Assembly: GCF_018777385.1 (NCBI RefSeq)
Contig: NZ_JAFJYB010000005.1
Coordinates: 124,001-188,000 of the forward strand
Length of the DNA stretch: 64,000 bases
Reading direction: 5' to 3'
DNA from: Candidatus Symbiopectobacterium endolongispinus
Lineage (GTDB): Bacteria; Pseudomonadota; Gammaproteobacteria; Enterobacterales; Enterobacteriaceae
Shown: in pieces, positions 16,185-21,261 of the stretch
How positions within the stretch are numbered: the first letter of the stretch is position 1
Layout: every line of letters begins with the position of its first letter
Notes under the pieces: model-generated
Databases searched by the model: none
What the model was told of the DNA's origin: nothing
Seen by the model: only the letters and a program-made list of their open reading frames with translations
Position numbers and translations under genes: made by a program

Positions 16185-16408
16185 ATATTCTGTTATGTGG
16201 CTGGCTATATTTACCTGAAGTGTAGCATTGCAAACGCGCAGGCTGGCTAACGACCTCACCCGGTGTGTTTTCTTGCAACGTTGGTGCGCGTTTTTTGCGC
16301 AGAACCATTTTCATGATCTGTCTCATTTCCTGTGTAAATGCCCCCCTTTTTCTGGGGAAATCGGTAGAATTTCCGGCCCTGATAACCCCCTGTGTTGAAG
16401 AGTTGACC

Positions 16409-18604
16409 GTGTCCACAAGCCTGATTGTTCCTGAACGCCATCTGTTTTCTTACCCACGCTACTGGGCTGAGTGCTACGGCACGGCGCCATTTTTGCCCAT
16501 GAGCCGCGCAGAGATGGATGAACTGGGCTGGGACAGCTGCGACATTGTGCTGGTGACAGGGGATGCCTATGTGGACCATCCCAGATTCGGCATGGCGATC
16601 GTTGGCAGGATGCTGGAGTCGCAGGGGTTTCTGGTTGGGATTATTGCCCGGCCGGACTGGACGCAGAAGAACGACTTTATGCGTCTGGGCAAGCTGAACC
16701 TGTTTTACGGCGTGACGGCGGGCAATATGGACTCGATGATCAACCATTACACCGCCGATCGCAAAGCGCGCCATGATGATGCGTATACGCCAGATAATAT
16801 TGCCGGTAAGCGTCCGGATCGCGCCACACTGGTTTATACCCAGCGCTGCAAGGAAGCCTTTAGCGATGTGCCGGTTGTGCTGGGTGGCATTGAGGCTAGC
16901 CTGCGCCGCATCGCCCATTACGACTATTGGTCAGACAAGGTGCGTCGTTCGGTGCTGGTGGATGCCAAAGCCGATTTGTTGATCTACGGCAACGGTGAGC
17001 GGCCGCTGGTGGAAGTTGCACACCGCCTGGCGGCGGGAGAGCCCATTAGTTCGATTGTGGATGTGCGCAATACCGCCGTGCTGCGTAAAACTGCGCTGCC
17101 CGGTTGGACATGGGTGGATTCCACGCGTCTGGATAGCCCCGGTCGCATCGAACCTATTCTTAATCCCTACGGCGAAGACTTGCCCTGCGTCGCGAATACG
17201 GTAAAGGGTTCCACCAGTGGCAAGCCCATCACCGTGCGGGCACACAAGCCAAAGCCGTGGGAAAAAACCTATGTGTTGTTGCCCTCGTTTTAGAAGGTGA
17301 AAAACGACAAGGCCATGTACGCGCATGCTTCGCGTATCCTGCACCACGAAACCAACCCGGGCAGTGCGCGTGCGCTGATGCAAAAACACGGTGACTGCTA
17401 TGTGTGGATTAATCCACCGGCCATTCCGTTGCAAACGGATGAGATGGACGCGGTCTACGCCTTGCCGTATCAACGGGTGCCGCACCCCTCCTATGGCACA
17501 TCGCGCATCCCGGCCTACGATATGATTCGCTTTTCCATCAACATCATGCGTGGCTGTTTTGGCGGATGTGCGTTCTGCTCGATCACCGAGCACGAAGGAC
17601 GCATCATTCAAAGCCGTTCGCAAGAGTCGATTGTGCAGGAGATTGAAGCGATCCGTGATGAAGTGCCAGAATTTACCGGCATTATCTCCGATCTGGGCGG
17701 ACCCACGACCAACATGTACATGCTGCGCTGCCAGTCACTCAAAGCGGAGCAAACCTGTCGCCGTGCTTCTTGCGTCTACCCAGAAATTTGCGCACACATG
17801 GATACCAACCATGAGCCGACAATCCAGCTATATCGCCGTGCCCGTGCCATGAAAGGTGTCAAGAAGGTGCTGATCACTTCTGGGGTACGCTACGATTTGG
17901 CGGTGGAAGATCCACGCTATATCAAGGAATTGGCCGAACACCACGTGGGCGGTTACTTGAAGATTGCGCCAGAACACACGGAGCAGGGGCCATTATCGAA
18001 GACGATGAAACCCGGCATGAGCAGCTACCACCGTTTCAAAGAGCTGTTTGACACCTATTCGCGTCAGGCGGGCAAAGAGCAGTATCTGATCCCGTACTTT
18101 ATTTCTGCTCACCCTGGTAAGCACGATGAGGATATGGTCAATCTGGCGCTGTGGCTGAAAAAGAACCGCTTCCGGTTGGATCAGGTGCAAAATTTCTATA
18201 CTTCACCTCTCGCCAGTTCTACCACCATGTATTACAGCGGTAAGAATCCGCTCAGCAAGGTGGATTATCACAGTGAAGAGGTGGTGGTGCCGCGTGGCGA
18301 TCGCCAGCGCCGTTTGCATAAGGTGCTGCTGCGCTATCACGATCCGGCTAACTGGGCGCTGATTCGTGAGGCGTTAACTGCGATGGGCATGAAGCACCTA
18401 ATCGGTAATCGCCGCGAATGTCTGGTGCCGGTAGCGACGGTCGATGAACGCCGCAATGCCAAGCCCTATCACAAGAGAGACACGGCGCAGGATAAAACCG
18501 CGCAGCCTGAGCTCACCCGCTTTATGGGGGAAGGGCGGCGGCCAGCGGCGAAGAAAAATGTTGGAAAAGCAAGCAATAAGCAGGGGCAGTCCGGCAAGCG
18601 ATGA
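16409..18604 (+). pseudogene. ygiQ: YgiQ-family radical SAM protein, single in-frame stop
   Basis: About 731 codons, matching YgiQ end to end. GTG 16409 ([18 protein letters not shown]) is chosen by family alignment; upstream codons are not conserved. The N-terminal UPF0313 domain runs to VLLPSF, where the usual Glu codon is TAG (17291-17293), and the same frame goes straight on as [16 protein letters not shown]. The radical SAM cluster [16 protein letters not shown] is intact, as is the rest to the Lys/Arg-rich tail. Function in the cell is not settled. Only this one base change blocks a full product; two separate polypeptides could in principle still be made. Confidence 0.93.
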
Positions 18605-18617
18605 GTGAGCGGTCGCC

Positions 18618-19160
18618 TCACGCTTGTGTCACGGCCTGATAAAGCCACTGTAACCGGACGCGCAGAAACTGTACGGACTGGTGCTTACGTAACAGCAAAG
18701 TTTCCACAGGGACGCCGGTCTCCTGCGCCAGTTGTTTGAAGCTGTAGACCTGCAACTCGGTTTTCTCAAAGGCTTCTCGTTGCAGCGCTGCCGCCAGCTC
18801 TTCCCACACCAGTTGGTACAGATAGGCATCTTCTGTGCTATCCGGCGGGCTGAACAGAATATCGGCCAATTCATCGCCTTCCGGCCAGCTCTCCGTTGCC
18901 ATTTCCGTGAGCGATATGTCGTGCTGCTTGCGCGAGCGATCGACCAACTCGTTGCGAGCAGCGCGAAATAGCCAGGCAGAAACATGCTCTATCGGATCGA
19001 GGTAGCTGTCGGCTTTGAGCTGCCGATAGCTGATTTCCTGAAAGATATCTTCCGCTTCAGCCGTGCTGCGCGTACGTCGAGAGATAAACGCACGCAGTCG
19101 TCGTTGACAGGCTTCAAGCGCAGTGAGCAGAACGTTTTGCCTTTGCATGGCGTCAGCCAT
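18618..19160 (-). CDS. ECF-type RNA polymerase sigma factor
   Basis: 180 residues. Region 2 is clear: CQRRLRAFISRRT, EAEDIFQEISYR and HVSAWLFRAARNELVDRSRK. Region 4 has the helix-turn-helix YSFKQLAQETGVPVETLLLRKHQSVQFLR. The stretch that normally opens region 4 with an LPxxQR motif is short here (ELAAALQREAFEKTEL), so about 6-7 residues may have been deleted in frame, which could weaken -35 recognition. The ATG overlaps the stop of the upstream membrane-protein gene (TAATG), so the two are translationally coupled. It is convergent with ygiQ, 13 bases apart. Regulon unknown. Confidence 0.82.
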   Translation of the reverse strand: MADAMQRQNVLLTALEACQRRLRAFISRRTRSTAEAEDIFQEISYRQLKADSYLDPIEHVSAWLFRAARNELVDRSRKQHDISLTEMATESWPEGDELADILFSPPDSTEDAYLYQLVWEELAAALQREAFEKTELQVYSFKQLAQETGVPVETLLLRKHQSVQFLRVRLQWLYQAVTQA

Positions 19161-19585
19161 TACTCCGTTTTTCCGCTTTGGTCGGCGGGTTTGTCGCTTG
19201 GCACCGGTGCGTCATACTGACTGTCATGACACGCCTGATGCCTACCACGACGGTGCGCGAAAGGGCCGTGATGAAAACGGTGACCGCAGCGCTCCCCGTG
19301 TGGGTCAAATCCCCGCTGGTGAAAAAAAGCGTCACGCTGTTCCTGACTCATGGCTAACCAACGCTCACGCATTTCGCGCCCATGGCGGCCAAAAAATCCC
19401 CGGTAGCCTATGCCACCAAACAGTATCTTACACAGGATCAGCAGCCCCAGCGCCTGGAAAAAGCCAATGCTTTGGACGCCAAAAATGGCGGGCAGCAAGG
19501 CATTCCACAGCAGCATTACCAGTGTGGCAATCGCCACAACCGCCAGCAGCCCGATACCCAGCATTTTAAATTTACGATCGTGCAT
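19160..19585 (-). CDS. Small His-rich membrane protein coupled to the sigma factor gene
   Basis: 141 residues from ATG 19585, which has CGGAG 8 bases upstream. Two likely membrane segments (about residues 9-31 and 42-60) contain WNALLPAIFGVQSIGFFQALG and ILFGGIGYRGFFGRHG, a pattern I have met in small proteins next to ECF sigma genes in several phyla. The C-terminal tail holds RERWLAMSQEQRDAFF and then a His/Cys-rich run (GERCGHRFHHGPFAHRRG). It is the first gene of the pair, so a role as anti-sigma factor or metal-sensing partner is a fair inference, but nothing in the sequence proves it. No lesion is seen. Confidence 0.7.
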   Translation of the reverse strand: MHDRKFKMLGIGLLAVVAIATLVMLLWNALLPAIFGVQSIGFFQALGLLILCKILFGGIGYRGFFGRHGREMRERWLAMSQEQRDAFFHQRGFDPHGERCGHRFHHGPFAHRRGRHQACHDSQYDAPVPSDKPADQSGKTE

Positions 19586-19732
19586 GTCATCTACTCCGTG
19601 TTGTTCTGATAGTGAAGTAGACGAATCAGGCAGAGAAATATTTGCATCAGGCGGCAAATTTTTTAAAAAAATGGGATGTAGTCAGAGACGGTGCGTTGAA
19701 ATAGCGGCGTGATACCGCTACTGTAGAGAGCA

Positions 19733-20571
19733 TTAGCAGTTGACGCAGTCGGCGGGAGTGAGGTGTTGATTTTCTGCGTTATCCGCGAGCGGTTCTATCT
19801 TACCGTGCTCTGTCAGACGGTAGAGGATACCAGCAACAATGCCGTTTTCTCCTTCATAGGCGGTGACAAAACGCAGGAGTTTGCCGTCATGGTAGCTGAG
19901 TGCTGCACAGCCACCGACGCCCAGCGTGAACTGTTGCACGCTGCCACTAGAGCAAAACACGCTGTCGGCACCGCTGACCTGTAGCGTGACGTTATCTCCG
20001 CAGTTGGCAATGCGCGCGCGATCGCCCAACGCGCTGATGCGGCAGTTCTGCCCCGTATTGCTATTTTGGCGGCAAAGCCGCTGCTCACCAACTGGCAGCC
20101 GTAGCCTGCGCTGGCGATGCTGTCGTTATCACCGGATTGACCGATAAAGTTGCCGTTGCCGGTGGCGGCCAGATTGCTTTGAAAGCCGGAGCAGCCAATA
20201 TTCAAAGCGTGAGCGCCGCTGGCAAATTGCAAGGTACACGACAGCATTGGCGTGAAGCGGCCACTGGCGTGGCCGAGTGGGGTAATGTGCAACTGTTCTG
20301 CCTGACAGCGTGTCAGCTGCGCTGCCAGGGTTCGCGCACTGCCTATCTCCTGTTCGAGAAACGGCCGGGCGCCAAAGTTGTGCGCGTAGGCATAATCCAC
20401 CAAACTTTCCAGCCAGGCGCTGCGGCCATCGCCAATCAGCGCCTCGTGAATCGCCTGATAGTTGCCGCCCGTTGGAAAACGTTGCAGGAACCAGTGATAC
20501 AAGTCGCGGCTAACGTGCAGCGTGCGCAACTGTTCACGAGTTATGTGCGGTTCTCCATGGGTCGGCATCAT
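19733..20571 (-). pseudogene. ydhT: YdhT, last gene of the ydh oxidoreductase operon, frameshifted
   Basis: Matches YdhT, a protein of unknown role encoded with the YdhV oxidoreductase. ATG 20571 is the likely start, 11 bases after the ydhU stop. The first frame carries WLESLVDYAYAHNFGARPFLEQEI and SGRFTPMLSCTLQFASGAHALNIG, then many short GxN/GDxx repeats. One G is missing from a run (CCCC on the plus strand at 20051-20054), and the protein continues in the next frame as GDRARIANCGDNVTL to the end at 19733. The repeats suggest a beta-helical C-terminal domain. Confidence 0.88.
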
Positions 20572-20581
20572 GGGTGCTCCA

Positions 20582-21261
20582 TTAGTGCCTGTGGTAGTCA
20601 TCGACCATACTACGGAAGGTCTGGGTCGGCGTGCGCCCTGTGGTGCACAGATAGAGATGCCCACAGATAAAGAACACGCTGAGTACCGCCAGCATAAAAT
20701 GCACCGGCAGCAGCCAGGCTTTCACCAAGACCCATCCGGCGGGCAGCCACAGCGGGTTATGCAACAATACGCCTGAGAGCAGCAGTAGCGGCACCAGACT
20801 GTACATCACCCCCAGAAGCCACCTGCTAACTTGGCGCGCGGTGTGGCCGGGAATGGATGATCTTCACCTTTGATAATGCCGTAAAGATAAAAGCGCACTT
20901 GCAGAAAAGCCCGCTGGCCCCATCCCTGTCGCTCGATAACGTAGTGGTGCCCGTTGCCACCCAGCGCGTTAATCAGCACAAACGCCAGCCAGCACGCCAG
21001 CAACAGTATAAACAGCAGCGCGTTGCTCCAGTGCCACAAACGTACCGCCCGCGAGTAGAGATACACCTTCTCCTCGTGTCCGTCAGCATGCGGCGCAGCG
21101 AAGCGATAACGCAGGAAACCGTGCAGCGCCAACACGCCCAGCATGCCGACAAACGCCACGCCGGCCAGGATCAGCCAGATAGGCCAATAGTCGGGGGTGT
21201 AGAGATAAACATACTGATACAGCTGGGACTGAAATTGCTCAGCGTTAGGCATGATATTCAT
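20582..21261 (-). pseudogene. ydhU: YdhU, cytochrome b-type membrane subunit, frameshifted
   Basis: Membrane cytochrome related to thiosulfate-reductase subunit PhsC, expected to pass electrons between quinone and the YdhV/X/Y ferredoxin chain. Present are KVYLYSRAVRLWHWSNALL with a haem-ligand His, and the C-terminal helices with LLPVHFMLAVLSVFFICGHLYL. About 30-40 residues usually found after the first conserved helix appear to be missing (LLLACWLAFVLINALGG). A contraction of a G run at 20809-20813 then shifts the frame (AGGFWG to VMYSLVPLLLL). Confidence 0.85.

Follow-up and report, generated by a model that had tools for sequence, protein, structure and literature searches.

A putative self-regulated ECF sigma factor module whose two-helix membrane partner is a candidate anti-sigma factor

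ECF sigma factors form a major class of bacterial signalling proteins, and for many of those without a class I anti-sigma gene nearby we know of no regulator. Such a gene lies near about one third of ECF sigmas, according to the accessible part of a survey (PMC7406223). The 64,000-nucleotide stretch of DNA analysed here (the window; positions 124,001 to 188,000 of contig NZ_JAFJYB010000005.1, assembly GCF_018777385.1, from Candidatus Symbiopectobacterium endolongispinus) carries an ECF sigma gene directly behind the gene of a small membrane protein (Table 1), which raises the question of what such a protein does for its sigma. We consider it fairly probable, judging from comparative sequence analysis, that the pair is a self-contained, autoregulated ECF sigma module with the membrane protein as putative inhibitor, most likely an anti-sigma factor whose family has no model in Pfam or NCBIfam. 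The ORF coordinates bear out the TAATG overlap described in a first reading made from the letters alone (the sequence-only reading): on the minus strand, the membrane-protein stop codon TAA (19162-19160) runs into the sigma start codon ATG (19160-19158), with GGAG immediately 5' of this ATG. No RNA families were found at 18000-20800 of the window.

Table 1 Features of the sigma/membrane-protein locus in window coordinates
Feature	Position	Strand	Description and basis
Candidate auto-regulated ECF promoter	19618..19642	minus	-35 AATATT at 19637-19642, 13-bp spacer, -10 CGTCTA at 19618-19623
Membrane-protein CDS	19160-19585	minus	141 aa, two-helix, putative anti-sigma factor; ORF and relatives by profile
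Membrane hairpin	19415..19564	minus	aa 8-57; phrog_705, phrog_2169; common to stand-alone phage proteins
Two short tail helices	19316..19396	minus	aa 64-90, predicted helices 64-78 and 81-90; RWLAMSQEQR, consensus RWxxMTPEER
His/Cys-rich C-terminus	19163..19315	minus	aa 91-141; pLDDT block means 44-59, predicted without helices
ECF sigma CDS	18618-19160	minus	180 aa, probably defective in region 4; TIGR02937 and Pfam Sigma70_r2 matches
Sigma region 2	18924..19115	minus	aa 16-79; Pfam Sigma70_r2
CAGCGCTG, single remaining copy at deletion site	18783..18790	minus	comparison with congener G001 and alignment of 217 sigmas
Remaining sigma region 4	18627..18782	minus	aa 127-178; V and L at two sites, private among 217 homologues

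A profile of the membrane protein alone finds relatives in Enterobacterales, Burkholderiales, Bacteroidota, Acidobacteriota and Spirochaetota. Counting weak matches, and including the centre genomes, which were picked for having the membrane protein, there are matches in 9 of 60 relatives' genomes, 16 of 398 genomes of the phylum set, 15 of 274 of the class set (13 of them weak, at E 1e-6 or worse, as tail-like or hairpin matches), 50 of 296 Bacteroidota, 20 of 149 Acidobacteriota, 41 of 200 in the family of the Burkholderia genome G444 and 19 of 100 in the phylum to which a Treponema genome belongs. Scanning species genomes confirmed at least 547 relatives, and the best 80 of these were kept. 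Neighbours were tallied over 259 loci (27 promoter loci of the 286 were left out), in which 251 ORFs match the profile at E 1e-5. An ECF sigma ORF lies within 200 bp on the same strand in 235 of these 251 cases, the arrangement looked for in an anti-sigma factor, which is encoded with its sigma. The query was the membrane protein alone, and this adjacency is more than chance; it agrees with the sequence-only reading, in which such proteins recur beside ECF sigma genes in distant bacteria. The contrary outcome, homologues lying mostly away from sigma genes, was looked for and does not hold for full-length homologues, whereas hairpin-only relatives do lie away from them. Among the 16 exceptions we judged 12 not to be full-length members and four to be so. 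The former have the hairpin only (L108, L110, L255) or a tail-like motif alone (L109, L190, L256-L259, L264, L266, L267). As for the others, L179 in Acidobacteriota has no adjacent sigma gene and a second, paired copy in the same genome, L185 has masked bases upstream, and L200 and L282 have a sigma gene on the same strand at a distance of about 340 and 600 bp. At L109, L256, L258, L259, L264 and L267, repeated WxxMTPEQR-like motifs stand without a hairpin about 300-510 bp from a same-strand ECF sigma gene, a second sigma-linked setting in which the tail motif recurs.

Once repeats are removed, with redundancy cut only at identical last 80 residues, 217 distinct pairs remain; their clade labels come from the search that fetched each locus. 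The Enterobacterales group includes L013 (a plasmid named Pseudomonas silvicola) and counts the broken L009 pair twice, and two L180 pairs share one promoter. The sigma gene comes first in 134 pairs and the membrane gene in 83, the latter order being found in all 66 Enterobacterales-group pairs, 11 of 58 in Bacteroidota, 2 of 51 in Burkholderiales/other Proteobacteria, 2 of 23 in Acidobacteriota and 2 of 19 in Spirochaetota. The two genes are also present together: the sigma subfamily (E < 1e-26) occurs in 10 of the 60 relatives, namely the nine with the membrane gene and G018, in which the promoter is followed by a damaged membrane gene and then by a sigma gene with a premature stop, and the next-best sigma matches in these genomes (E 1.1e-19 or worse) lie elsewhere. 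Pairwise identities of the membrane proteins follow those of the sigmas (r = 0.81 over 217 pairs; the largest value in 200 shuffles was 0.10). That the pairing is an accident of operon structure, the two proteins not working together, was already disfavoured and we hold it to be very improbable, given that adjacency is kept with inverted order across distant groups and that the genes share both their presence and a promoter element. Inspection by eye of 28 loci with simple ORF calling revealed no third conserved gene recurring beside the pair across lineages; among Pantoea loci, the same neighbouring genes do recur. The sigma profile also gave a second, different sigma-like match (E 1.1e-19 to 4.1e-18) in all five genus genomes searched (L302-L306).

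What kind of protein is the partner? The two membrane helices proposed in the sequence-only reading are predicted by AlphaFold2 at residues 3-35 and 42-57, at low overall confidence (pTM 0.28), and the WNxLxPxxFG...QALG...KILFGG pattern that it had pointed out is present and proves to be the best-conserved stretch in a wide family: a core of V, L, W and N is invariant in the family alignment, M, P, G, A, G and LFG are nearly invariant, and so are W, M, E and R in the tail behind the membrane part. The tail motif [MLIF][STN]x[ED][EQ][RK] is found in 170 of the 217 homologues. Lys and Arg average 1.5 in the 8 positions before helix 1 and 5.2 in the 23 positions after helix 2, and 0.7 in the 19 loop positions, yet 64% of the proteins have at least one Lys or Arg in the loop; from this surplus ahead of helix 1, and still more behind helix 2, we infer a hairpin whose two ends lie in the cytoplasm. 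The tail is rich in His and Cys as had been remarked, His making up 4.4-7.9% of the part after helix 2 depending on the clade, against 1.5% in the partner sigmas (217 distinct homologues), and at least one Cys following helix 2 in 163 of 217. His-richness peaks in Enterobacterales, and other features of the family are better conserved. Metal sensing was considered as the defining feature and rejected: the tail reaches its greatest length and His content in Enterobacterales, and Cys occurs in no more than 7 of 19 pairs in Spirochaetota and 26 of 51 in Burkholderiales/other Proteobacteria. Metal sensing by the Cys/His tail, one of the two signals (metal or envelope) in the anti-sigma hypothesis of the sequence-only reading, is a possibility. 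In agreement with the earlier impression that no described family covers the protein, it has no Pfam or NCBIfam match above cut-off and no recognised anti-sigma domain, and 34 diverse relatives give isolated weak matches at most, the commonest being DUF3106 (3 of 34), with NrsF in 1 of 34 (E 0.0034). Comparison with solved structures gave nothing significant for the membrane protein, and a literature search that covered few subscription journals found no paper on the two-helix family.

The hairpin reaches beyond the sigma-linked proteins. It matches phrog_705 (E 9.8e-13, residues 14-57) and phrog_2169 (E 6.1e-8), so that it is of the PHROG 705 type, and the phage membrane proteins of PHROG 705 and PHROG 2169 have the same two-helix hairpin. 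Phage records matching at E up to 1 number 237 (best 3e-5; 40 listed), all of them Synechococcus, Prochlorococcus or cyanophages by name. In three of four cyanophage loci examined (L328-L331) the hairpin is a short ORF adjoining thymidylate synthase; in the fourth, P-RSM6, the ORF is cut by the record end and likewise adjoins that gene, and the proteins in the four loci are annotated as hypothetical. More hairpin-only proteins without a tail are found on viral contigs L316-L327, and contigs L307-L315 hold full-protein copies like those of Enterobacter and Lelliottia. In four of these IMG/VR contigs (L307, L308, L311, L312), the predicted viral sequence ends exactly at the stop codon of the membrane gene, an Enterobacter-like copy; either a provirus adjoins the operon or the viral boundaries are drawn too wide. 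Unlike the sigma-linked family, the PHROG 705/2169 phage loci and hairpin-only viral loci examined have neither a tail nor an adjacent sigma gene. Cyanophages have the hairpin by itself, with no sigma beside it, so sigma control need not be what the hairpin is for; the sigma-linked family is distinguished by the tail, which the viral hairpin-only proteins lack, and for this reason the cytoplasmic RWxxMTPEER tail is the likeliest candidate for the sigma-contacting part. Residue coupling gives a weak signal for contact of the tail with sigma region 4. In a mean-field analysis, eight of the top 25 inter-protein couplings are tail-by-region-4 pairs, compared with a mean of 2.6 and a maximum of 6 in 25 permutations, which ignore within-clade relatedness and one of which equalled the real count in the top 50. 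The top pair falls to rank 10553 without Enterobacterales, and the count is 4 or 5 of 25 on leaving out Enterobacterales, Bacteroidota or Acidobacteriota. The sample of 217 pairs (Meff 133) is too small for this method, and the coupling runs counted L253, from another family of the class, as Enterobacterales, which the clade counts do not.

The sequence-only reading called for a search for an auto-regulated promoter upstream of 19585, and AATATT-N13-CGTCTA is a candidate. It is the sole match in the 64-kb window, with 0 in 100 shuffles, and with the following C it has one exact match in the whole genome (G000). In the 60 relatives, AATATT-N13-CGTCTAC occurs once each in 11 genomes, that is, in all ten with the sigma gene and in G017, where the match is probably due to chance. 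A similar element lies upstream of the first gene in homologous operons of other phyla: in the stretch from 200 bp before to 130 bp beyond the point where the first frame opens, 133 of the 217 distinct pairs have AATAT-N14-[CTG]GTCT and 0 of 217 have the reversed pattern. By clade, the looser pattern is present in 64 of 66 Enterobacterales-group pairs (the two misses, L004 and L042, have the site outside the searched stretch), 39 of 51 in Burkholderiales/other Proteobacteria, 15 of 23 in Acidobacteriota, 15 of 58 in Bacteroidota and 0 of 19 in Spirochaetota. The Spirochaetota pairs (L081, L093, L269-L286), which lack the AATATT pattern, mostly lack the MTPEER motif too (2 of 19 have it), as if promoter type and tail had changed in concert. 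Among the papers listed in a literature search, none described a promoter of the AATATT-N13-CGTCTA kind, and we regard the element as a candidate for the sigma's own promoter.

Searches for further targets bear on what the sigma is for. With up to 2 mismatches allowed, the pattern matches in eight genomes at the 8 operon sites and at 8 places elsewhere, and the reversed control has 15 matches, which leaves no excess of targets. In 200 genomes of the G444 family, AATATT-N13-CGTCTTC has 26 exact matches spread over 25 genomes; 17 precede a membrane gene by at most 1 kb and 9 lie elsewhere, against 5 for the reversed pattern. The sigma may have weak targets besides. With the operon promoter as the only strong site with evidence, the membrane protein could be the output of the system rather than its regulator: the sigma would be switched on in another way and would mainly make the membrane protein, for instance an envelope- or membrane-stress protein. 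The membrane gene standing first in 83 of 217 distinct pairs fits this reading, as does the occurrence of related hairpins alone in phages, which indicates that a hairpin can function without a sigma. Set against these points are the tail, conserved in sigma-linked proteins and absent from viral hairpin-only ones, the near-absence of full-length members without a sigma, where an effector would be expected to occur without one, and the finding, by eye, of no other candidate regulator recurring beside the pair. We therefore think it unlikely that the membrane protein is the output, and prefer to see it as the inhibitor.

In the window itself, the sigma appears damaged. The protein is an ECF sigma by its TIGR02937 match (53.5 bits against a cut-off of 42.9) and by its region 2 (Pfam Sigma70_r2, 45 bits against a cut-off of 24), and in comparison with solved structures it matches ECF sigmas such as SigL. 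Its Sigma70_r4_2 score is 15.2 bits with a cut-off of 25.7, and the block missing here is kept in congeners. The sequence-only reading, which saw the LPxxQR entry of region 4 as lost, was right about the preceding block (EEMPAL in congeners), which is gone, and not about QR itself, which is still present: relative to congeners, an 18-bp in-frame deletion removes six residues before QR. At the deletion site, congener G001 has CAGCGCTG two times, 10 bp apart, where the window keeps a single copy. This is the trace that a slippage deletion leaves, so the six-residue loss reads as a repeat-mediated event; it may instead be an assembly error in the window. The window is alone among 217 aligned sigmas in having an internal gap before QR, and six further sigmas are gapped across the whole of region 4 because the aligned ORF stops short of it. 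Three residues of the window sigma (model positions 42, 139 and 158) are found in none of the other 216 homologues. Its dN/dS in pairs with congeners (0.09-0.23) is not clearly raised, so that the case for damage is built on the deletion together with the three unique residues; a list of window-private substitutions, restricted to sites where all congeners have identical codons, was left out of it. AlphaFold2 still predicts helices through region 4 (pTM 0.43), a model that does not in itself reveal a defect. The window sigma is probably inactive, part of its region 4 being lost, with the membrane-protein gene intact and a promoter element identical to that of two congeners. Nearby, ygiQ (16265-18604, plus strand) is split over two ORFs, and ydhT and a thiosulfate-reductase-type cytochrome b gene (19733-20664 and 20582-21261, minus strand) each extend over two frames, splits that look like signs of local gene decay. 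Together with the deletion and the unique residues, these interrupted neighbours favour the earlier suggestion that the system is dying in this strain. The pair is altered in other genomes as well: the G002 sigma reads beyond its usual end, both genes are broken in G031 and both are damaged in G018.

The order of this decay touches on another alternative, in which the membrane protein acts positively, either anchoring or stabilising the sigma or serving as a membrane relay required for the sigma's activity. Tight pairing and co-inheritance would be expected equally of such a partner. In the window and in G002, two genomes of the genus and two cases only, the membrane gene is intact where the sigma has changed, which is the order expected if losing an inhibitor first is harmful, and membrane partners of ECF sigmas are usually inhibitors. 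A positive role for the protein is therefore improbable in our estimation.

Collectively, the pairing, the co-inheritance, the common promoter-like element and the lack of an excess of strong copies in the tested genomes support, at the level of sequence, the reading of the pair as an autoregulated module with an inhibitor. Spirochaetota without the promoter pattern, Bacteroidota mostly without it, and L179 without an adjacent sigma stand against it. On this model, the membrane protein would form a helical hairpin in the inner membrane with both ends cytoplasmic, and its cytoplasmic tail, two short helices around RWxxMTPEER, would hold the sigma inactive at the membrane, most likely through contact with region 4. 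A signal felt by the hairpin, by its short periplasmic turn or by the Cys/His residues of the tail would release the sigma, and the freed sigma would transcribe its own operon from AATATT-N13-CGTCTA and so renew its inhibitor. We infer direct binding, inhibition and release of the sigma by the membrane protein from these comparative data. As a more tentative proposal, about which we have more doubt than confidence, the unnamed anti-sigma family may have arisen as a short cytoplasmic sigma-binding tail added to a phage-type hairpin, and may travel with its ECF sigma and own promoter (-35 AATATT, -10 CGTCT) as a portable closed loop, the pair being present in at least four phyla and the promoter type in three. 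Since the module itself would be the one strong target in both of the lineages tested, the readout of the signal would be the abundance of the membrane protein.

One unnamed membrane family is thus found with a sigma subfamily in several phyla, and the promoter-like element that goes with the pair opens regulon and signal to direct testing. If the module regulates only itself, as it appears to, the question arises of what its output is; the hairpin, which marine phages also have, gives a second way of approaching its function. Among known systems, the CnrX-linked anti-sigma factor, compared by description only, resembles the window protein in having a very short cytoplasmic sigma-binding part on a membrane anchor, and differs in that this part is N-terminal, the membrane helix single and the metal sensor a separate protein, CnrX. 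Class I anti-sigma factors are often co-encoded with their sigma and, in the accessible part of the survey, are described as having an N-terminal four-helix domain (ASDI) whose first three helices bind region 4 (PMC7406223); in the window family, by contrast, the cytoplasmic part is C-terminal, consists of about two short helices and matches no Pfam anti-sigma domain. The closer likeness is to NrsF of Caulobacter crescentus (DUF1109), an inner-membrane protein whose gene shares an operon with that of its ECF sigma, sigma-F. According to the accessible part of its description, NrsF is a negative regulator though mostly buried in the membrane, with six transmembrane segments and two conserved cysteines that probably face the periplasm (PMC3511200). 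The window family, with two predicted helices and no such cysteine pair, falls outside NrsF (PF06532), so that NrsF is the nearest worked example in kind, from a different family.
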